Positions 774 to 12,895 of a stretch of 64,000 nucleotides of DNA are shown here, one piece after another (positions within the stretch are counted from its first letter, which is position 1; every line of letters begins with the position of its first letter). Origin of the DNA: Pusillimonas sp. DMV24BSW_D (lineage in GTDB: Bacteria > Pseudomonadota > Gammaproteobacteria > Burkholderiales > Burkholderiaceae_B); the NCBI RefSeq assembly GCF_011388195.1, contig NZ_CP049990.1:1736001-1800000 (forward strand), read 5' to 3'. A program made the translations under genes and the position numbers. The notes beneath the pieces are model-generated. The model saw only the letters and a list, made by a program, of their open reading frames with translations. It did no database searches and had not been told where the DNA came from.

Positions 774-2162
774 CTAAGTATTCGGCCCGGTACCGCGTGG
801 CAACCCAAGATTGCGCAGCTTTTCGCCCTGCATGACCTTGGTTTCAATGTCCTCTAGGCGAACGCGCCGGGTTTCCGGCAAATAAATGATGCTGATGATC
901 AGTGACATTAGGCAAACCACCATGAAAATGCCAATTGTGGCGCTTAACCCGATGGCATTGATGACCGACAGGAAAGTAAATGCAATGGTGGCGTTGAAAA
1001 GCCAACTGATTGAAGAGGCGACGGCAATGCCGTTTTCACGGATTGCACTGGGGAAAAGCTCAGACATCATGACATAGGGTAAGGGCCCCAGGCTGATGGC
1101 AAACGCAATGATAAAGAGGCACAAGCCAATTAGCCCAATATAGGGCATGGCATAGAGTGACGCCAAAATGACCAGCGCCAGGCCGACCGTCATGAGAGCG
1201 GAGCCGAAAATCAGCAATGGACGTCGCCCGGCGTTGTCGACCAGTTTCAGCGCAACAATGGTAGCCAGAAAATTGGCCAGCCCGAGCCCGAACGTGGCGG
1301 CCAGTGAGGCAGTGCCGGGCGCAAACCCCAGTGTCTGGAAGAGGTGGGGGGCATAATAGAGGATGGCGTCGATGCCGCTGAAATTTTGCAGAATGAAAAG
1401 CGTACTGCACAGCACCAGCACGGCAACAATGCTGGTGCGGGATTTTTTTGTGGGGGTGGCCGGGTGTGCTGCGGGGGGCACATGTGTGTTTGCATCGAGG
1501 TTTTCTTCCTGGCGTGCGGCTTCATGCCACTCTTGCTGCAGGGATAACGCCTGCGCAGCCTTCCCGGCCTCTTCCAACCGTGACTTTGCGCTTAGCCAGC
1601 GTGGGCTTTCCGGAAGATTAAATAAAACCAAAACACCCAAAACGCCGGGAATGATGCCAACGCCCATAATGTGGAACCACGACCAAGACGACACGAACAG
1701 CAGTGCCACGGTGTACGACAGTAAGATGCCCGCCGTGATGGCCAGCTGAAAAAGAGCCACGACGGCGCCGCGTTTTCGGGCCGGGGTAGTTTCAGCGGCG
1801 TACATAGGTACGACCATGGACGACAGCCCGATCGATAAGCCTAAAGCCAGGCGCGCACCGATCAGAACGCCGTACGCAGGTTCGGAAAGAATCACGGCAT
1901 ACCCGGCCAAGGTTAAAGCGAATGCCAGATACATAACAGGGCGTCTTCCCCAGCGTGAAGACAAGGGGGCGGCCAGCATGGCACCCGCAAAGCAGGCAAT
2001 GACCAACGTTGAAACCAGTGTTTCCTGAGCGCTGGTATTGAGCTGGAATATCACGGCTAAGCGTTCCAGTACGCCGGCAATAGAGGTGATGCCAAAACCA
2101 AACAAAATGCCGAAACAGCAAACCAGGGCGGCAACGCGATAACTGGGGTCCAAACCTCTCAA
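774..2162 (-). CDS. MFS sugar porter (first copy)
   Basis: A 462-residue twelve-helix major facilitator of the sugar porter family. Visible signatures are SRWGRRPVMY in the loop after helix 2, LPESPRWLSAKSR after helix 6, DNAGRRPLLI in the repeat of the first motif, and LPETRRVRLEDIE at the C-terminus. A polar loop of about 50 residues separates the two halves. The start is a TTG at 2160-2162, preceded by AAAAGGACA at good spacing; no ATG fits the conserved N-terminus. It is divergent from the aminotransferase gene and shares an intergenic region of about 106 bases with it. The substrate is probably a hexose or cyclitol taken up with protons; the sequence does not decide it. Confidence 0.85.
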   Translation of the reverse strand: MRGLDPSYRVAALVCCFGILFGFGITSIAGVLERLAVIFQLNTSAQETLVSTLVIACFAGAMLAAPLSSRWGRRPVMYLAFALTLAGYAVILSEPAYGVLIGARLALGLSIGLSSMVVPMYAAETTPARKRGAVVALFQLAITAGILLSYTVALLFVSSWSWFHIMGVGIIPGVLGVLVLFNLPESPRWLSAKSRLEEAGKAAQALSLQQEWHEAARQEENLDANTHVPPAAHPATPTKKSRTSIVAVLVLCSTLFILQNFSGIDAILYYAPHLFQTLGFAPGTASLAATFGLGLANFLATIVALKLVDNAGRRPLLIFGSALMTVGLALVILASLYAMPYIGLIGLCLFIIAFAISLGPLPYVMMSELFPSAIRENGIAVASSISWLFNATIAFTFLSVINAIGLSATIGIFMVVCLMSLIISIIYLPETRRVRLEDIETKVMQGEKLRNLGLPRGTGPNT

Positions 2163-2268: not shown

Positions 2269-3588
2269 ATGTCGTCGAATTCTGCTTCTACGTCCGCCGA
2301 GCAACTGGCCATTGATGGCGGCCAACCTGTTAGAACCGAACCATTGCCCTGGGAATTTCCAGGCGCAGGATGGATGAATGAAGAAGAACGCGAATTGGTT
2401 ATGCGGGTGGTCGATGCACACAGCCCGTTCCGCTTCTACGGGCCGCAGGCCCAGCATATGGTCGACGTTTTCGAGAAAGAATGGTGCGAGAAATATGGGC
2501 ACAAGCATGCTTTAGGCGTGTCCTCCGGCACGGCAGGCTTAAGCATTGCCATGTCGGCGTTGGGGCTGGGGCCCGGCGACGAGGTACTGGTGCCCGGATA
2601 TTTATGGGTCAGTTGCGTATCTGCCGTTGTGCGCTCGGGTGCCATCCCCCGCCTGGTGGATGTCGACAACACATTTTGCCTGGACCCGAACGATTTGCGA
2701 GACAAGATCGGGCCGCAAACGCGGGCGGTGTTATGCGTTCACATGAGCGGAGCCCCGGGGCGGATCGACGAAATTGCGGCCATCTGCCGGGAAAATCGTC
2801 TGGCCCTTATTGAAGATTGTGCACAGGCTTCGGGAGCCAGCTTTAAAGGGCAGGCCGTTGGCACGTTCGGTGATATCGGTGTGTTCAGTTTTCAGTTGAA
2901 CAAAAACATGACATCCGGCGAGGGAGGCATGGTTGTTACGCAGAGCGATGCGTTGTTCAAACGGATCGTTGCGTTGCACGACTTGGGATATCCGCGTACC
3001 CCGGCAGGGCGGCTTGACACCTCCGACCCGAATACCCAGCTTTGGGGCGTTGGCGCACGCATGCCGGAATTAACCGGGGCCATGGCGCTGGCACAAATGC
3101 GCAAGCTGGAGAAAATTACTGGCGCGATGCGAGGGGCGAAATGGCGTATCCGCGAAGCGCTCGAGGGCACACCAGGCCTTGAGTTTCGTCATGTGCCCGA
3201 TCCTGCCGGAGACTCCGGGCCTTTCATGCTGATGCTATTACCCACGGAAGATCATGCGCAACGCTTTGTCGATGCCCTGAAAGCCGAGGGGATTCGGGGG
3301 CCGGACGGCAGCCTGGCTTGCCTGACCATGCGTGATTGGGGCCTGCACTGGTATTCCAATATTCCAAGCCTGGTGAATAAACGTTCGAACAGCGCCGATG
3401 GCTTTCCATGGTCGCATCCGCTGAATTCATTTGCAGAGCAGTACAGCTATGAGCATGGCGCGTTGCCGGAATGCGACGCGATGCATGCACGCGGCGCATT
3501 GCTCACCATTGCCTCTGTTTTGAAAGATAACGATATCGACGACATTATTACAGCCATTAAGAAAGTATCTCGCGCGGTCTTACGCTGA
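2269..3588 (+). CDS. DegT/DnrJ/EryC1/StrS-family PLP aminotransferase
   Basis: A 439-residue fold-type I PLP enzyme. The cofactor lysine is K212 in SFQLNKNMTSGEGG, preceded by the IEDCAQASGA segment and by VSSGTAGLSIAMSALGLGPGDEVLVPGY, which binds the phosphate. The family transfers an amino group, usually from glutamate or glutamine, to keto-sugars or keto-cyclitols. It is the first gene of a plus-strand set with an MFS porter and a GMC oxidoreductase. Such a set could oxidise a polyol or cyclitol and aminate or deaminate the ketone. No nucleotide-sugar biosynthesis genes are nearby, which argues against a role in O-antigen synthesis. The substrate is inference. Confidence 0.85.
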   Translation: MSSNSASTSAEQLAIDGGQPVRTEPLPWEFPGAGWMNEEERELVMRVVDAHSPFRFYGPQAQHMVDVFEKEWCEKYGHKHALGVSSGTAGLSIAMSALGLGPGDEVLVPGYLWVSCVSAVVRSGAIPRLVDVDNTFCLDPNDLRDKIGPQTRAVLCVHMSGAPGRIDEIAAICRENRLALIEDCAQASGASFKGQAVGTFGDIGVFSFQLNKNMTSGEGGMVVTQSDALFKRIVALHDLGYPRTPAGRLDTSDPNTQLWGVGARMPELTGAMALAQMRKLEKITGAMRGAKWRIREALEGTPGLEFRHVPDPAGDSGPFMLMLLPTEDHAQRFVDALKAEGIRGPDGSLACLTMRDWGLHWYSNIPSLVNKRSNSADGFPWSHPLNSFAEQYSYEHGALPECDAMHARGALLTIASVLKDNDIDDIITAIKKVSRAVLR

Positions 3589-3635
3589 ATCGATCGCCTG
3601 TAAAACAACCAATCAAAAAACTCAGGGAGAGTCAG

Positions 3636-5327
3636 GTGATTTATTTTGTTGCGTTGGTGGCGGGTCTTGCCGGCATTCTGTTTGGTTTCGATGAAGGGGT
3701 GATTGCCGGCGCGCTGTCGTCTTTGCGCGCCGAGTTTCAGATAACCTCGCTGGAAGAGGGCATGATGACAGCCGCCGTGCCGTTTGGCGCGCTGTTCGGT
3801 GCTTTATTGGCCGGGTCGTTGGCCGAGCGTTTCGGTCGTCGTCAAACCCTATTGTTTGCGTCTGTTTTGTTCGTGATCGGTGCGTTGTGCGCCGGCTTGG
3901 CGCCGGGGGTGTGGGTGCTGACAGGATGCCGGTTAGTGCTGGGCCTGGCGGTGGGGGTGGCCGCGATGGTGGCGCCTTTATATATCTCTGAAAGCGCGCC
4001 CAGTAAGCAGCGCGGTATGCTGGTTTCGGTTTATCAGCTTGCCATTACCATTGGTATTCTTTCGGCCTATCTGGTGAATTTCGCCTTCGACGATAAGTGG
4101 CGCACTATGTTTATGCTGGGCGCTTTGCCGGGTATTGCCCTGTTCCTTGGCATGGCGGTTTTGAAAGATACGCCGCGCTGGTACATTTTGAAAGGGCGTA
4201 CCGAAGACGCTCGACGTGCCCTGCAACGGGTCCGTGGTACGTCTGTAAGTCAGCATGAAATTGAATCAGAGCTTGGGCATATTAAAGCGGCGATGGACAC
4301 GAACGGTTCCGGTCGTTGGGCCGATTTGCTGGCACCTGTCGTCCGGCCGGCGTTCATTGTGGGTATCGGGCTCTTTTTCCTGCAACAGCTAAGTGGCATT
4401 AACGCCGTTATTTACTATGCGCCTACGGTTTTTCAAGAGGCCGGTTTTGATTCCGGCTCCACCCAGCTCATGGCCACGATTGGCGTCGGGGTGGTTAATG
4501 TACTCATGACGTTGGTTGGTATGTATCTTATCGACCGCATCGGGCGTCGTCGCCTCTTGTTCTTGGGGTTCGTGGGCACCGCGTTGGGTTTGGGCATGAT
4601 TGCCGTGGGTGCGGCAACCGGTATACAGTCGCTCGATATTCTTGCCGTCATCGGTATGGCGCTTTATATCGCGGCCTTTGCCGCCAGTATCGGTCCTTTG
4701 CCCTGGGTCATGATGGCTGAAATTTTTCCATCTCATGTGCGTGGCATGGCGATGGGCGTTACCTCGCTTACTAATTGGGGTTTTAATTTTCTGGTCGTGT
4801 TTTCGTTTCCGGTTCTGGTGTCGTCGCTTGGGCTGGGCGGGGTGTTCGGCATTTACGCGCTGGTCTGTGTTGCAGGCGTGATCTTTACCTATTTGCGTAT
4901 TCCTGAAACCAGCGGTGTTTCGCTCGAAGACATCGAAAAACATTTGTTGTCGGGCCGTCCGTTTCATATGTTGGGTCAGTTTGCACCACCGTCTATGCAC
5001 ACCGACGCACCGGACATTACCCAGGATCAGGCGCATGAAATGCTGACTCAACTTGTCGAGTTCAGTCCGTATCGTACCTATTTGCGCCCTTTAATTAACC
5101 GAATTAGCGAAGTGGGTTACGACAATCGTCAGGTTCGCACGGCGCTGCGCATTGTTTATGCGCGGGTCGGCGGCCGGCCGGGGCAAACGCTAACGCAGCA
5201 CGATATGGGGCCCGAACGCGAGACTTTCGTGGCGTTTTTTGAACATATCCGGTTTGCCTCGCCGTCGTTTTTGCAATGGGTTGGAGAGCCGCAAGTGGAC
5301 AACAAAGGAGATTCGCGTGGAGCGTGA
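3636..5327 (+). CDS. MFS sugar porter with extra C-terminal domain (second copy)
   Basis: The first 440 or so residues are a complete sugar porter: AERFGRRQTLL, LKDTPRWYILKGR, QQLSGINAVIYYAPTVF, DRIGRRRLLF and IPETSGVSLEDIE are all present. QLSGINAVIYYAP is typical of xylose, glucose and myo-inositol carriers. About 120 further residues follow, with no transmembrane helix and no family I recognise; they include LVEFSPYRTYLRPLINRI and FFEHIRFASPSFLQWVGEP. The usual family length is about 450-480, so 563 is long. The GTG start has GGGAGA upstream. The 3' end overlaps the GMC oxidoreductase gene by 11 bases, so the two proteins are probably translationally coupled. Confidence 0.85.
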   Translation: MIYFVALVAGLAGILFGFDEGVIAGALSSLRAEFQITSLEEGMMTAAVPFGALFGALLAGSLAERFGRRQTLLFASVLFVIGALCAGLAPGVWVLTGCRLVLGLAVGVAAMVAPLYISESAPSKQRGMLVSVYQLAITIGILSAYLVNFAFDDKWRTMFMLGALPGIALFLGMAVLKDTPRWYILKGRTEDARRALQRVRGTSVSQHEIESELGHIKAAMDTNGSGRWADLLAPVVRPAFIVGIGLFFLQQLSGINAVIYYAPTVFQEAGFDSGSTQLMATIGVGVVNVLMTLVGMYLIDRIGRRRLLFLGFVGTALGLGMIAVGAATGIQSLDILAVIGMALYIAAFAASIGPLPWVMMAEIFPSHVRGMAMGVTSLTNWGFNFLVVFSFPVLVSSLGLGGVFGIYALVCVAGVIFTYLRIPETSGVSLEDIEKHLLSGRPFHMLGQFAPPSMHTDAPDITQDQAHEMLTQLVEFSPYRTYLRPLINRISEVGYDNRQVRTALRIVYARVGGRPGQTLTQHDMGPERETFVAFFEHIRFASPSFLQWVGEPQVDNKGDSRGA

Positions 5328-6960
5328 CTATGATTGCGATGTGTGTATTGTAGGAACAGGCGCAGGGGGCGGTATTCTTGCTCATCAGTTGGCCAAGGCC
5401 GGTGTGAGTGTCTGGTCACTTGAACAAGGTCCGCGTCTTCAAGACGATTTCTTTAAAACGGTTATGCCACCGGGTCCGGGCTCCACTTTCGGTATAGGTC
5501 GGAACACTGTTTGGCCCAGCGATCCGCACGACAGCCTGTTTGTTCACCCCTTGTTTGCCGACGGTCAACACGGCTCAACAGCGCGTCCCCAAGGGGGCTT
5601 TCAGCATTTTCAGGTTTTGGCGGTTAATGGGCTGCAAAATTTATGGAATGGGGTTAGCGTGCGATTCGCCCGCGAAGATTTCAAGTATTGGCCAATTGAA
5701 GGCCAATCGCTGGATTCACATTACAGTGCGGTCGAAAAACTCATTACAGTCTGTGGAACACGTGAAGGTCTTGATGCGCTTCCGGATGGTGAGTTCATTG
5801 AGCCCAAACCTTTGCGTCCGGCCGATCACATGATTGTTGATGCCGTGCAAAAGCTGAAAGATGGCTATTCTTATGCGATTCCCAATCGTAAAGCCATTAA
5901 TACGCGTCAGGGGATGGCCACGTCCTGCGTGTCCACCGGCATTTGTACCTCTGGCTGCCCGGTAGGTTCGGTTTACAAGTTTACGGCACGCTTGTTGCCT
6001 GAAATTGCTACGCTGGCAAACTACCGTTTGGTCTCTAATGCAAAGGTGTTGCGTGTGTTGCGCAGTGCGCAACACAATAATCAAGTTGATGAAGTAGAGT
6101 ACCTCGACACGCAAACGCAGGAAAAGCGCCGGGTTCGGGCACGCGTGGTGGTGTTGGCAACGGGGGCCGTCGAAACGCCCCGTATTTTGTTCAATTCCGC
6201 AGATGCAACCGATCCCCAGGGTTTGGGTAACGCAGGCGATATGCTGGGTCGCGGCTTGCAGGATAATCCTAAGGTGGTGTTGTCCACTTCATTGCGTCGG
6301 CTGTGGGGCAAGCAGCGCGATTACGACATTGGTTACGGCGATTTGCTGATCTTAATGTCGCGCGGCAAGTTGGCCGATGGCGCCGAATTTCCGTTTATTG
6401 GTCACGCCATTCACGGTATTCCCGATGTCCCTCACTACCTGGGTCAAATGAAATGGATGCCGCCACGCATCAAGGAACGGATGGCAAAGTACCTGTTTTA
6501 CAGTTACGTCACGCTTGGGCTCTTTTGTGCCGGCGAGCGCAAACTCGATAATAAAGTCCGGCTCGCCGACACCACGGATCGTTACGGGGTGAGGCAGGTG
6601 GCGGTTGATTTCACCATGCCGGAATCGGTTCATGAGCAAATGGACGTCATGATGGCATGGGGCCGGAAAATTTTGAAGTCGGCCTCTTCCACAATGATTT
6701 ATGAAACCCGCGACAACAGTGGCACCGGTATTCATTATGCGGGTACCACCGCCATGTCGGCCGATGCGTCCGAAGGCGTGGTCGACGGCCATCTGCGCGT
6801 GCACGGTTTCGATAACCTGTACGTGTGTGATGGCGGCGTCGTTCCGCACCTGCCGGATAAGCACCTGACGCTGACCATTATGGCACTTTCACACCGTCTG
6901 GCTCAGCGCTTGTCGGTTCAGTTTCAGCCGCTTGAAGTGCAAACGGGGCAAACTGCCTGA
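5317..6960 (+). CDS. GMC-family flavin oxidoreductase
   Basis: A 547-residue glucose-methanol-choline type oxidoreductase. The GTG at 5317 is chosen because AAAGGAG ends six bases upstream and the protein then begins just before the FAD-binding GTGAGGG motif at residues 13-19. A cysteine-rich segment, CVSTGICTSGCPVG, lies near residue 210. The C-terminal active-site region reads IHYAGTTAMSAD and later PDKHLTLTIMALSHRLAQRL, where the second catalytic position appears to be His rather than the common Asn. The family oxidises alcohols or polyols to aldehydes or ketones. There is no obvious signal peptide or twin-arginine motif, so it may act in the cytoplasm. The overlap with the porter gene suggests it acts on the transported compound. 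Confidence 0.85.
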   Translation: MERDYDCDVCIVGTGAGGGILAHQLAKAGVSVWSLEQGPRLQDDFFKTVMPPGPGSTFGIGRNTVWPSDPHDSLFVHPLFADGQHGSTARPQGGFQHFQVLAVNGLQNLWNGVSVRFAREDFKYWPIEGQSLDSHYSAVEKLITVCGTREGLDALPDGEFIEPKPLRPADHMIVDAVQKLKDGYSYAIPNRKAINTRQGMATSCVSTGICTSGCPVGSVYKFTARLLPEIATLANYRLVSNAKVLRVLRSAQHNNQVDEVEYLDTQTQEKRRVRARVVVLATGAVETPRILFNSADATDPQGLGNAGDMLGRGLQDNPKVVLSTSLRRLWGKQRDYDIGYGDLLILMSRGKLADGAEFPFIGHAIHGIPDVPHYLGQMKWMPPRIKERMAKYLFYSYVTLGLFCAGERKLDNKVRLADTTDRYGVRQVAVDFTMPESVHEQMDVMMAWGRKILKSASSTMIYETRDNSGTGIHYAGTTAMSADASEGVVDGHLRVHGFDNLYVCDGGVVPHLPDKHLTLTIMALSHRLAQRLSVQFQPLEVQTGQTA

Positions 6961-6970
6961 GGGGCGTTTA

Positions 6971-8512
6971 ATGAAAAACAGCCCTGATTCGTTTCCGATT
7001 TCGCCGCATATTGCGGCTTTGCTTGAGCGTGCCGAAGCAGACCCGATTATTGATGAAGCGACAGGTCTGCAACAGGCACAACTCCTTCGACTTCAGTTGC
7101 TGAAAGCACAGTATGCGCATTTGCGGCGAGCGAATCAGGCGTTGTTAATTGTGATTGCCGGTATTGACGGTGTCGGTAAAGGCCGCTGCATTAATCTGTT
7201 GAATGAGTGGATGGATGCGCGTTATGTTCACACACTTGCTTTTGGTGAACCTGAAGTGCCCGCATCATTTATGCCACCGTTATGGCGCTATTGGCAACAT
7301 ATGCCTCCAAAAGGCACTACCGGAATTGTGTTCGGCTCGTGGTATCGGCCGTTATTTGAATTATTGAAGAAAAAGCGACCTGATTGGAAACAGGTGGAGG
7401 CGGTGACGCACGCCATTCGTGATTTCGAAACGACCTTAAGTCGTAACGGGGTACAGGTTGTTAAGCTTTGGTTTCACATGTCGAAGCAGGCCCAGCAGGC
7501 GCGCATAGATGGGTTGCTGGCTAACCCGGAGACTGCCTGGCAGGTAGAGTCGCTTGATTTCAAAGTACGTAAAAAATTCGATCGTGCGCGCCGTGCCGGG
7601 GCCGTGGCAATGAGCTTAACGCACGAACCGCGCATACCATGGCAAATTGTTCCTTCAGCGCATGATTTGTATCGGGTCATCAGCACAGCGCAAGCGGTAC
7701 TCAAAGGCTTACGTAAACGGCCGTCGCCGAGTTGGCGTCCGGTTTATCCGTTCTGTTCAGAGCCGCCCGAGTCATTGTCTTGTATATCGCCCGTCTCGCT
7801 CGACGGAATTGATTTCTCAGCCAAGCTCAAGAAAGCCGACTATCAAAATCAATTGCCTGCTTTGCAAGGTCGGTTGGCACGTATGTTGCGCGACACGAAA
7901 TTCAAAAATCGCTCACTGGTGCTGGTGTTTGAAGGCCAGGATGCTGCCGGTAAAGGGGGCGCGATTCGTCGTATTACGGCGGCATTGGATGCGCGCCAGT
8001 ACCGGGCCATTCCCATTTCAGCGCCCACCGACGAAGAGCGGGCGCGCCCTTATTTATGGCGTTTTTGGCGGCGGTTGCCCAAGCCTGGGCGAATCGCTAT
8101 TTTCGATCGTTCGTGGTACGGGCGTGTCTTGGTTGAACGGGTGGAGTCGTTTATAGAGCCGTTGCAGTGGGAGCATGCATACGACGAAATCAATCAGTTC
8201 GAACAGCAAATGATTGACAACGGTGCCATTGTGATCAAGTTCTGGCTGGCCATTACCAAAGAGGAACAACTGGAACGATTTCATGCGCGCCGGAAATCAC
8301 CTTTTAAGTCTTTCAAAATAACGCCTGAGGATTGGCGTAATCGGCGCAAATGGGATGCATACTGGGTAGCAACGAATGACATGCTGGGCCGTACCCATAC
8401 ATCTCTTAGCCCTTGGCATCTCGTGTCGGCCAACGATAAACACCACGCGCGGATTACGGTGCTTGAAACCGTGGCGGCCCGCCTGGAGTCCGAATTGCAG
8501 GGTGCAGGTTAA
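6971..8512 (+). CDS. pap: Polyphosphate:AMP phosphotransferase, two-domain PPK2
   Basis: A 513-residue protein with two tandem PPK2 kinase domains. The N-terminal one has a Walker A GIDGVGKGR near residue 64 but reads GSWYRPL where the Walker B motif should be, so it has lost the key Asp. The C-terminal one has GQDAAGKGG near residue 322 and an intact FDRSWYGR near residue 378. This is the pattern of class II PPK2 enzymes, which use polyphosphate to phosphorylate AMP to ADP; the second domain is then the catalytic one. The ATG at 6971 is preceded by GAGGGG. It follows the GMC gene by 10 bases and may be in the same transcript. Confidence 0.9.
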   Translation: MKNSPDSFPISPHIAALLERAEADPIIDEATGLQQAQLLRLQLLKAQYAHLRRANQALLIVIAGIDGVGKGRCINLLNEWMDARYVHTLAFGEPEVPASFMPPLWRYWQHMPPKGTTGIVFGSWYRPLFELLKKKRPDWKQVEAVTHAIRDFETTLSRNGVQVVKLWFHMSKQAQQARIDGLLANPETAWQVESLDFKVRKKFDRARRAGAVAMSLTHEPRIPWQIVPSAHDLYRVISTAQAVLKGLRKRPSPSWRPVYPFCSEPPESLSCISPVSLDGIDFSAKLKKADYQNQLPALQGRLARMLRDTKFKNRSLVLVFEGQDAAGKGGAIRRITAALDARQYRAIPISAPTDEERARPYLWRFWRRLPKPGRIAIFDRSWYGRVLVERVESFIEPLQWEHAYDEINQFEQQMIDNGAIVIKFWLAITKEEQLERFHARRKSPFKSFKITPEDWRNRRKWDAYWVATNDMLGRTHTSLSPWHLVSANDKHHARITVLETVAARLESELQGAG

Positions 8513-8513
8513 T

Positions 8514-8606
8514 ATGTCGTCCTTTGGTTATATGAAGCTTGGGCAAAGTATGATTGCCAAGACTTGGCCTGATGGGGTTTTAAGCTGGGTAAAGGTTTTA
8601 GAATGA
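8514..8606 (+). CDS. Possible 30-residue leader ORF before the ion channel gene
   Basis: A short frame starts at an ATG one base after the stop of the polyphosphate kinase gene. Its TGA overlaps the ATG of the ion channel gene (ATGA). The predicted peptide starts MSSFGYMKLGQSM and has no recognisable motif. The tight placement would allow translational coupling into the channel gene. The upstream Shine-Dalgarno match is weak (GCAGGT). It could equally be chance, since the interval is only 90 bases. Confidence 0.25.
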   Translation: MSSFGYMKLGQSMIAKTWPDGVLSWVKVLE

Positions 8607-9667
8607 GTGTTGCAAAATTCGGTCGGCATATTTTTTTTGCGTTGTTGTTCTGTATTGTGCTGCAGCCGGCGTGGGCTGATATTCCTCCGCCCAGTCCCGA
8701 CAAGCCAACGTTGGTGAATGTTGACCTGAAGCTTGAGGATATCAACGATATTAAGTTGGGCTCCGGCACCTTCGACTTAACTGCGCAGTTCGGTATGCGC
8801 TGGCATGATCCCCGTTTGGAGTTTGAACCGGAGCCCGGCAGACCGGGGCCGCGCATCTGGATGGGCGCGCGCGCGGAACAGCAGTTACAACAAATCTGGC
8901 ATCCGATTATCGACGTTAATGGCGAAAAGGGGTTGTCAGTTGCACGGGTGTACTCGCTTAGTATCTGGCCCGATGGTCATGTGGAGTTGCGTGAGAAGTT
9001 CTCGGCAACGCCGCGTTTCGATGGTGAGCTAACATGGTTTCCATTTGGTCATTTAACGTTAAGCCTTACCTTAACCAGCGCGGCAATGGACCGCGGGCAA
9101 ATCGAGTTTGAATTGGGTGAGCTGACACCGAAAGAGGATCTTGCAGCGGTTGATCGGGTTATTCACGGTAACTGGGTTCCCGAGGATGTGGGTTGGAGCG
9201 TTAGCGAACGTACTCGCATGGTGCATTCCAGCAACTTGTATCCACAAATCGACATTGATATTCGGGTGGAACATGATTTTCTTGACGGCGTTCACAAGGT
9301 TTTACTCCCTTTAATTGTTATCGCGTTGGCATCGTGGGGCCTGTTATGGCTCAACCCCACCGTGCAGCCTGCTTTTTCTTCACCAAGAATCGGGGGGACA
9401 ACAACGCTGATACTCACTACCATTGCCTTGAAGTTTGTCTTGGGGCGCGAGTTGCCGGTGGTGCATTACTTAACGCTGGCCGACGTGTTGTTTAACGTCA
9501 CCATCATTATGCTAACGATCAGTCTGTTAACTTCATGCCTGGTTGCCGCCGTGTTTACCGAAAGGGGGGCCGATGCGGCCCGCTCCCTGAATCGCATAAT
9601 AGGGCGGTTGTATCCCTTTATTTATGTCGTGTTGCTTGTTGTGTCGATCCCTTTATTTATTGAATGA
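8603..9667 (+). CDS. Prokaryotic pentameric ligand-gated ion channel (GLIC/ELIC-like)
   Basis: A 354-residue Cys-loop-receptor-like channel subunit. A signal peptide ends at AWA (residue 25). The extracellular beta domain shows WHDPRLEFEP near residue 67, IWHPIIDVNG, a PDGHVELREKFSA strand and the FPF turn of the pro-loop; like other prokaryotic members it lacks the disulphide cysteines. Four hydrophobic segments follow: M1 (LLPLIVIALASWGLLW), the pore-lining M2 (GGTTTLILTTIALKFVLGRE), M3 and M4. In this family five subunits form a channel in the inner membrane gated by protons or small amines. The ligand cannot be read from sequence. The 3' end overlaps the DMT transporter gene by four bases. 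Confidence 0.88.
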   Translation: MSVAKFGRHIFFALLFCIVLQPAWADIPPPSPDKPTLVNVDLKLEDINDIKLGSGTFDLTAQFGMRWHDPRLEFEPEPGRPGPRIWMGARAEQQLQQIWHPIIDVNGEKGLSVARVYSLSIWPDGHVELREKFSATPRFDGELTWFPFGHLTLSLTLTSAAMDRGQIEFELGELTPKEDLAAVDRVIHGNWVPEDVGWSVSERTRMVHSSNLYPQIDIDIRVEHDFLDGVHKVLLPLIVIALASWGLLWLNPTVQPAFSSPRIGGTTTLILTTIALKFVLGRELPVVHYLTLADVLFNVTIIMLTISLLTSCLVAAVFTERGADAARSLNRIIGRLYPFIYVVLLVVSIPLFIE

Positions 9668-10978: not shown

Positions 10979-12895
10979 TCAGGCCGGCAGGTCGTTCGAT
11001 ATCGACCACTGACCGTTTCCTTTTAAGTTAAGTTGTTTGGCATGATGTCGAACCAGTGTACTGCGATGTCCGACGCTAATTAAGACGGTATCCGGTAAAT
11101 GCCGGCGAATCAAGCGGTACATGGCGTCTTCCAGGCCTTCGTCCATTGCGGAAGTGGCTTCATCCAGGAAAGCAACTTTTGGGCGCGCCACCATCAGCCG
11201 ACCGAACCCCAGCCGTTGTTGTTCACCCAACGACAAAATCCGGCTCCAGTCATTCACCTCATCGAGCCGGTCAGTTAAATGGCCCAGTTGAATTTGTTCC
11301 AGTATTTCGCGTGCCTGGGGGTCTTGATGCGTCGCCAAAGGGGTGACTGTGGAGGGAGTTTCGACCTGCTCATCCAGATTCTGGGGTGCTGAGCCGGAAC
11401 TTGCCACTGCCGCCTCTTTCTGTTCTTCGCGGTCGATAAACAGGCCTTCCCGCGTGCTGACTATGTGCGGATAATACAAAGCCTGGCGCAGTGAGCCCAG
11501 TGGCAAGTACGGTTTTTGTGCCAGGAATAGCAGGTGGTCTTGAGGCCGTTCGATATCACCCTCACAGAAAGGCCACAGGCCGGCAATGGCACGTAATAGC
11601 GTTGTTTTGCCCGAGCCGGATGGCCCGCGAGTAAGCAGGGCATCGCCCGGCTTAAGGGAGAGGTCGAGTTTGTCTATCAGCAACCGGTTGTTGGGAGTGT
11701 GTACCGTTAAATTTCGGATGGTAAGGTGGTCTGCATGGTCATTAAGGTTGGGGCGGGGTAATTGCTGCGCCTCATCAATCGCCCGGTTGAATCCGGTTAG
11801 ACGGTCGAGTGTTGCACGGTACGATGCGAACTCATCGTAGGCATTGCGGAAAAATGAAAGATTGTCTTGCAGGCGCCCGAATGCCTGTGCTGTCTGCATC
11901 AGATCGCCCAGCGTGATTTGCTCGGAGAAGAAGCGTTTGGCCTGAATAATGAATGGAAAAACAACGGCCGCCTGCGTAACCGAAAAGTTAAAACCCAAAA
12001 ACTTCAATGATCGATACACAATCGCCCAGGCATTGCTGATCACTTGCGCAAATCGGCCGCGTAGGAGCGTGCTTTCCACTTTTTCCCCGGCGTAGAAAGC
12101 AATACTTTCTGAATATTCGCGTAACCTGACCAGTGCGTAACGATAGTCGGCATTGAAACGTTCATTCAAAAAGTTCAGCATGATCAACGGTCGGCCGATT
12201 CGAATTGCCAATAGGGTGGCCACCAAAACATAAATAAAAACCAGAAATACCATGGCACGGGGAATTTCAACGCCAAACAAGCCCAGCGGCCCCGACAAGC
12301 CCCATAAAATAAGGGTAAAGGCAACCGTTGATACCAGTGCGTCGACCACGCCCATGGACAGCGTCAGTGACGACTGCACGAATACCGTGACGTCGTATTG
12401 AATACGTTGGTCGGGGTTATCGACGCCTTTTTCCAGGTGCTGGGTGCGATAGTAGGATTGGCGGTCGAGCCAACGGCCAAGCAATTGGTTGTTCAGCCAG
12501 GTTCGCCAATGAATTGAAAATGCCTGCTGGACATAGTAGTCGAGTAGCGATCGCAAAACATGGACGGTGGCCAGGGCTGCAAACAACCACATTGCCAGCC
12601 AGAATGCCGCTTCATTCAAATCCTGAAGGGCGCTGTACATGGTGTTATACCAGTTTGAAAACAACACCTGTAAACGCACGCCGGCCAGGGTCAGGAGCAG
12701 AATAAAAGCAATGGTAAGAATGGGTTTCCAACTGCGTCGGGGGGAAAAATAGCCACCCGAAAGTTGCCAGAATTGACGCCCCCACACTGTGCGACGTGCC
12801 AGAAACCAAACCGTTAAACCGAAGCATATCAGCGTAACGACATATACTTGTGAAAGCCATATTGCACTGTCGATCAGTTCCTGCGTCCAGTTCAT
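10979..12895 (-). CDS. SbmA/BacA-like ABC transporter with fused ATPase (YddA type)
   Basis: A 638-residue half transporter. The first 350 or so residues form a six-helix domain resembling SbmA/BacA and the peroxisomal ABCD family (NWYNTMYSALQDLNEAAFW, RTWLNNQLLGRWLDRQSYY, NPDQRIQYDV). The ATPase domain has Walker A GPSGSGKTT near residue 425, signature LSLGEQQRLGFGR near 553 and Walker B VAFLDEATSAMDEG. Between the Q-loop and the signature there is an unusual polar insert of about 45 residues rich in Glu, Ser and Thr. Relatives import peptides or cobalamin-like compounds across the inner membrane; the substrate here is not known. Confidence 0.85.
   Translation of the reverse strand: MNWTQELIDSAIWLSQVYVVTLICFGLTVWFLARRTVWGRQFWQLSGGYFSPRRSWKPILTIAFILLLTLAGVRLQVLFSNWYNTMYSALQDLNEAAFWLAMWLFAALATVHVLRSLLDYYVQQAFSIHWRTWLNNQLLGRWLDRQSYYRTQHLEKGVDNPDQRIQYDVTVFVQSSLTLSMGVVDALVSTVAFTLILWGLSGPLGLFGVEIPRAMVFLVFIYVLVATLLAIRIGRPLIMLNFLNERFNADYRYALVRLREYSESIAFYAGEKVESTLLRGRFAQVISNAWAIVYRSLKFLGFNFSVTQAAVVFPFIIQAKRFFSEQITLGDLMQTAQAFGRLQDNLSFFRNAYDEFASYRATLDRLTGFNRAIDEAQQLPRPNLNDHADHLTIRNLTVHTPNNRLLIDKLDLSLKPGDALLTRGPSGSGKTTLLRAIAGLWPFCEGDIERPQDHLLFLAQKPYLPLGSLRQALYYPHIVSTREGLFIDREEQKEAAVASSGSAPQNLDEQVETPSTVTPLATHQDPQAREILEQIQLGHLTDRLDEVNDWSRILSLGEQQRLGFGRLMVARPKVAFLDEATSAMDEGLEDAMYRLIRRHLPDTVLISVGHRSTLVRHHAKQLNLKGNGQWSISNDLPA

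Follow-up and report, generated by a model that had tools for sequence, protein, structure and literature searches.

The window (the whole stretch of 64,000 nucleotides analysed here, from Pusillimonas sp. DMV24BSW_D) contains a cluster of five conserved parts, which comprise two sugar porters, an aminotransferase, an oxidoreductase and a domain without any assigned family.

774–2162, minus strand: second sugar porter (MFS2), divergent, without the extra domain; PF00083, 2.2e-87; start codon uncertain; position conserved in 11 of 11 clusters.
2269–3588, plus strand: DegT/DnrJ/EryC1/StrS aminotransferase; PF01041, 5.3e-76; PDB 5k8b, 1.4e-68; present in 11 of 11 clusters.
3636–4955, plus strand: sugar-porter (MFS) core, residues 1–440; TIGR00879 and PF00083; last hydrophobic stretch by residue 424.
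4956–5327, plus strand: C-terminal domain without family, residues 441–563 and stop codon; predicted helical core at about residues 463–550.
5317–6960, plus strand: GMC oxidoreductase; PF05199/PF00732; C-x5-C-x3-C at residues 204–214; two conserved histidine motifs.

The porter core and the domain belong to a single uninterrupted open reading frame (3636–5327, plus strand), which starts with GTG and codes for 563 amino acids. The core matches the TIGR00879 sugar porter (SP) model over residues 1–433 (8.4e-118, 394.1 bits against a curated cut-off of 237.8) and PF00083 over residues 5–435 (3.4e-122). Since these models stop at residues 433–435, residues 441–563 (4956–5324, followed by the stop codon at 5325–5327) lie beyond the porter fold. 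A preliminary description of this locus had noted a soluble extension of about 120 residues after the sugar porter and an overlap between the end of its gene and the GMC gene. Both features are confirmed: 123 residues are outside the two porter models, and the GMC gene starts at a GTG at 5317, after an AAAGGAG located by eye, so that 11 bases are shared. Other sugar porters of TIGR00879, such as GlcP and XylE, have the same complete core; the protein described here has 123 soluble residues more. The extension is hydrophilic (GRAVY -0.57) and contains no hydrophobic stretch. A scan of the region for promoters and terminators gave nothing informative. We should also note an in-frame ATG at 5040, located at the first predicted helix and with an AGG 8 bases upstream (by eye). 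An internal start at this position could free a domain of about 95 amino acids (5040–5324).

Comparison with Neopusillimonas maritima shows how the extension evolves. There are 22 synonymous and 13 non-synonymous changes in the extension (dS 0.328, dN 0.048). As dN is well below dS, a chance read-through is excluded, and the extension is a selected protein domain. The corresponding dN and dS values are 0.004 and 0.115 for the porter core, and 0.009 and 0.177 for the GMC gene. Identity between both species is 89% in the extension and 99% in the porter core. The extension is a domain under purifying selection, with a looser constraint than the porter core or the GMC gene. In more distant genomes its identity falls to 33–46%. 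Residues in the core of the domain are invariant across nine sequences, and none of the conserved residues is a cysteine.

All five parts of the cluster (divergent MFS2, DegT, porter, domain and GMC) are found in identical order in 11 of 11 clusters. Nine of them correspond to genomes of the Alcaligenaceae family, in which domain and porter are fused. In one of these nine (G549, L024 8290–8650) a frameshift splits the domain into two pieces, while the other four parts each align whole; this domain was excluded from the profile and the frameshift was left as it is. A search of 268 genomes of the family with the GMC protein gave nine matches at E<=1e-60. The nine-row profile of the domain gave ten matches at E<=0.01 in the same 268 genomes: the same nine as the GMC protein, and G604, a match with E 0.006 and an internal stop which we judge to be due to chance. 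The domain has been found solely in genomes which also have the GMC gene. Relatives of the porter at E<=1e-60 were present in two of 61 genomes, the window genome and N. maritima, both of which have the cluster.

The cluster is rare. In the wider phylum, a GMC match at E<=1e-40 is present in five of 398 genomes, namely the window genome and four others of its class, with 29–31% identity. A three-row profile of the domain, applied to 399 genomes of the order, matched the window genome alone. A scan of contigs with strict patterns gave three loci, one of them in Microvirga brassicacearum. Distant relatives of the domain may be missed by the three-row profile and by the strict patterns. Searches of plasmids with the GMC protein and with the domain gave no match. 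Two other candidates were dropped: one in G015 (E 0.008), which lies within another open frame of L004, and one in G1370 (E 3e-4), opposite the frame of an ABC ATPase. A gene for a PPK2 protein of 512 amino acids, with two polyphosphate-kinase stretches, is found directly 3' of the GMC gene (6974–8512). Among the stretches we fetched, only those of the window genome and N. maritima have PPK2 beside the cluster.

The preliminary description had suggested a search for genomes in which the domain is a separate gene. We looked for such cases and found two, in both of which the domain gene is directly 5' of the GMC gene. In Microvirga brassicacearum (L008) the porter (3199–4572, 457 aa) is followed by a domain gene (4577–4933, 118 aa) and by the GMC gene (4926–6557). 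In G1280, a genome of the same family, a domain gene coding for 108 amino acids (L057 1492–1818, also L059) overlaps the stop codon of the porter and is followed by the GMC gene. A profile search of this family matched three of 199 genomes: Microvirga, G1280 and a third one judged to be due to chance. The junctions between porter and domain differ in both genomes, which excludes a single shared sequencing error. In a tree of the GMC proteins, most forks of which are unresolved, both separate forms are grouped (93/98), and they may derive from one later split. The fused set appears as one side of a branch in 6% of the bootstrap trees. The tree does not choose between fusion and split: the stand-alone genes are evidence of a domain able to do without the porter, but not of an origin outside it.

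These genes also bear on two other explanations of the domain. That it has no function, being a C-terminal extension which evolves almost neutrally, appears most improbable to us. It would agree with the faster evolution of the extension compared with the porter core, and with the frameshift in G549, which may be a sequencing error or decay. Against it, dN is well below dS, core residues are invariant, and the domain is retained as a gene of its own in two genomes. A second explanation, which we regard as rather unlikely, is that the domain serves the porter itself as a regulatory or sensing tail: it would sense a cytoplasmic product or bind the inner loops, thus tuning transport. In its favour, fusion to the porter is seen in nine of the 11 clusters. 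Yeast homologues of sugar porters do have cytoplasmic C-terminal signalling tails, according to excerpts of two papers (PMC10876965, PMC12740885). Among them, the glucose sensors Rgt2 and Snf3 share the sugar-porter fold and a cytoplasmic C-terminal extension with the protein described here; the likeness is one of description, and their tails serve eukaryotic signalling. On the other hand, the domain is a separate protein in two of the 11 clusters, and MFS2, a porter of the same cluster, does not have it. Nor does it match any sensor or regulator family in Pfam or NCBIfam; an unrelated regulatory domain, which would have spoken against a dehydrogenase subunit, was looked for in Pfam, NCBIfam, the PDB and fold comparisons, and none was found.

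The GMC protein provides the best indication of what the domain may do. Its top match in the PDB is an FAD-glucose dehydrogenase (6a2u_B, 7.7e-33, residues 6–533), followed by a fructose dehydrogenase (7w2j_A). The C-x5-C-x3-C motif is kept in the GMC proteins of all 11 clusters, as are both histidine motifs, which we take to be the active site. Judging from its sequence, the protein groups with the catalytic subunits of FAD-glucose and fructose dehydrogenases, of the Fe-S type. GMC enzymes of this type have small subunits. The preliminary description had mentioned that some GMC-type dehydrogenases work with a small separate subunit, and the present one is of such a type, as far as can be seen in the excerpts of two papers on the FAD-glucose dehydrogenase BcGDH (PMC6719666, PMC9727119). 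According to these, Cys212, Cys218 and Cys222 of BcGDH hold a 3Fe-4S cluster, and a small subunit with five helices lies on the Fe-S side, linked to Cys213 by a disulfide. The enzyme is exported, its small subunit being a Tat hitchhiker, and is completed by a cytochrome c with three haems. The excerpt of the first paper adds that the catalytic subunit needs small subunits of this type in order to fold and to be secreted (PMC6719666).

The domain is encoded directly 5' of the Fe-S-type GMC gene in all 11 clusters, as is often found for small subunits of the PF12318 family (FAD-SLDH small subunit, which includes FAD-GDH gamma and the small subunit of fructose dehydrogenase). The chains 6a2u_A, 8grj_A and 7w2j_B are matched by a protein of this family, and in seven of the eight PF12318 genes with annotated neighbours the GMC gene is directly downstream (a cytochrome c gene is present in one); three more records that we fetched have no annotation of neighbours and are outside this count. 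The cluster thus resembles the gamma-alpha pair of BcGDH (6a2u): a GMC subunit with C-x5-C-x3-C and a small all-helical partner, here predicted, often encoded directly before it. For the small partner, the likeness lies in gene place and predicted helices, and comparisons of sequence gave no sign of homology. Unlike BcGDH, the small partner is fused to a porter, and there is no Tat signal, no matching cysteine and no cytochrome among the conserved parts. A similar comparison may be made with fructose dehydrogenase (7w2j), an exported enzyme: its large subunit comes second among the PDB matches of the GMC protein, and the PF12318 protein that matches BcGDH gamma also matches its small subunit. 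The four distant GMC relatives of the class (Gammaproteobacteria, 29–31% identical) all have an adjoining subunit of the PF13618 family (Gluconate_2-dh3). In this they resemble our cluster, where the domain also adjoins the GMC gene, but the PF13618 subunits are separate proteins of 245–262 amino acids with a twin-arginine start (by eye), and their genes follow the GMC gene.

The differences from BcGDH point to another cell compartment. BcGDH has Cys213 directly after the first cysteine of the motif; at the corresponding position, all 11 GMC proteins have V, I or E. The disulfide partner is therefore missing, as would suit a reducing cytoplasm. A Tat-type start was not seen in the GMC proteins (by eye, some starts being uncertain), and the RR-x-F signal is present in none of ten domain sequences, including both stand-alone proteins. 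For this reason the GMC enzyme should be cytoplasmic, on the side of the membrane where MFS porters also have their C-terminus. The five conserved parts of the cluster include no cytochrome c gene and hence lack the established route for electrons.

Kinship between the domain and known families was sought by several methods. The window domain matches nothing in Pfam or NCBIfam, nor any PDB sequence at E<=10, and eight other domain sequences have no PF12318 or PF13618 match in Pfam either. DUF7262 (E 0.005, L023) and PhnG (E 0.046, L019), each below the Pfam cut-off and found with one sequence, were taken for chance. Scans for PF12318 in nine whole genomes with the cluster gave none on the domain among the matches listed at E<=10. 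By eye, a relationship with PF12318 had seemed plausible, with LS...L..P at the start, ...VG at the end and a similar spacing. This candidate failed the shuffle test: when the ten-row core of the domain was compared with a PF12318 profile of 16 rows (one of them, L045, barely above the cut-off, 32.2 against 24.2 bits), the score was equalled by 54 of 100 column shuffles. Comparison of the full alignments with hhalign was also insignificant. With a five-row PF13618 profile, four of 100 shuffles scored as high, over merely ten aligned columns.

Two AlphaFold2 models were obtained from four-row alignments, with either the window sequence or the Microvirga protein in first place. Both are helical, with five main helices (mean pLDDT 74.6 and 77.0, pTM 0.64 and 0.65, respectively), and the ten-residue blocks of the core reach 81–93. 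The well-predicted part corresponds to the core given above; the first 20 residues or so are a variable linker, and about 15 at the end have low model confidence. As the alignments are shallow, these models serve as a guide only. Foldseek gave no match at E<=0.001, neither in the PDB with both models nor among viral models with one. The best hits of VIA were two unrelated chains, 2x04_B (Z 4.8, rmsd 2.5, 65 aligned residues) and 3c51_B (Z 4.3, rmsd 4.1, 74 aligned residues), with Z values in the range that the tool calls common. The known small subunits are absent from the Foldseek and VIA lists, an absence which excludes nothing. The domain may be a stand-in unrelated to the known small subunits, or a relative too remote for the profiles we used.

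What we observe is a conserved domain, predicted to be helical, with stand-alone forms beside the GMC gene and strict co-occurrence with it, and an Fe-S motif in the GMC protein. The reading we prefer, which has about half of our confidence, is that the domain would be a gamma-like small subunit of the downstream Fe-S GMC dehydrogenase and would tether this enzyme to the importer at the membrane, a contact and a tethering that we infer. As a separate protein, the domain is always encoded right before the same GMC enzyme, which suggests that the porter probably holds the enzyme at the membrane. The domain adjoins both the porter and the GMC gene, so co-occurrence and gene order cannot choose its partner; we have chosen the GMC enzyme because of what is known for its Fe-S type. 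The tethered subunit proposed in the preliminary description is thus favoured by the stand-alone genes, the enzyme type and the strict co-occurrence; kinship to a known small-subunit family was detected neither by sequence nor by profile or fold.

Two other functions may be considered for a domain in this position. It might be a scaffold or dock for DegT, or for the entire porter-GMC-DegT set, rather than a dehydrogenase subunit. DegT is indeed as constant as GMC, being present in 11 of 11 clusters. We consider this improbable: the coding sequence of the domain adjoins the GMC gene, not DegT, and small subunits belong to the Fe-S GMC type, while we know of none for DegT enzymes. Alternatively, the domain might help in the folding of the GMC enzyme or in the insertion of its Fe-S cluster and then leave the complex, the fusion merely coupling synthesis. 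Such a role would agree with the overlap of the porter and GMC genes and with the folding and secretion function described for small subunits in the excerpt mentioned above (PMC6719666). It gives no evident reason for a fusion to a membrane porter in nine of 11 clusters, and we regard it as very unlikely.

If the domain is a tethered subunit, it would bind the GMC enzyme from the cytoplasmic C-terminus of the importer, over or near the Fe-S cluster. The dehydrogenase would be held on the cytoplasmic side of the membrane, beside the incoming substrate, and would oxidise an imported polyol or sugar on entry. DegT could then aminate the ketone or aldehyde formed, or the pathway could run in reverse; we infer substrate, direction and electron acceptor of this system. 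The nearest solved relative of DegT is an 8-amino-3,8-dideoxy-alpha-D-manno-octulosonate transaminase (5k8b), which we take to be KdnA. The other nearest family models are mostly nucleotide-sugar transaminases. The 5k8b transaminase works on a free sugar acid; that the substrate here might, by analogy, be a free sugar or cyclitol is only a guess. A membrane production line might be formed in this way, with an importer carrying its own subunit, oxidation by GMC at the mouth of the porter, amination by DegT and exit of the amino product through MFS2. This is possible, although we are inclined to doubt it.

Should this be the case, a transporter would double as a subunit of an Fe-S flavoenzyme, with uptake and oxidation in one polypeptide, as part of a short pathway by which a free sugar or cyclitol is imported, oxidised and transaminated. 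To our knowledge, the pairing of Fe-S GMC dehydrogenases with a small subunit is restricted to exported enzymes; here it would also occur in the cytoplasm, with another partner, and the domain would represent a new small-subunit family. In the open-licence full-text literature we have found no description of this arrangement, whether among fusions of a porter or MFS protein with a dehydrogenase subunit, under GMC together with DegT or kanosamine, or among cytoplasmic GMC enzymes with a small subunit. The domain is a protein family without prior assignment, and the 118 aa protein of Microvirga and its GMC enzyme are a concrete pair for testing.

Two other genes in the window may be mentioned. 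A protein of 354 amino acids encoded at 8603–9667 has a PF02931 domain (neurotransmitter-gated ion-channel ligand-binding domain, 2.8e-12) and is probably, judging by this match, a bacterial homologue of pentameric channels. At 10979–12895, a transmembrane region similar to SbmA/BacA is joined to an ABC ATPase domain (PF06472, PF05992, PF00005).
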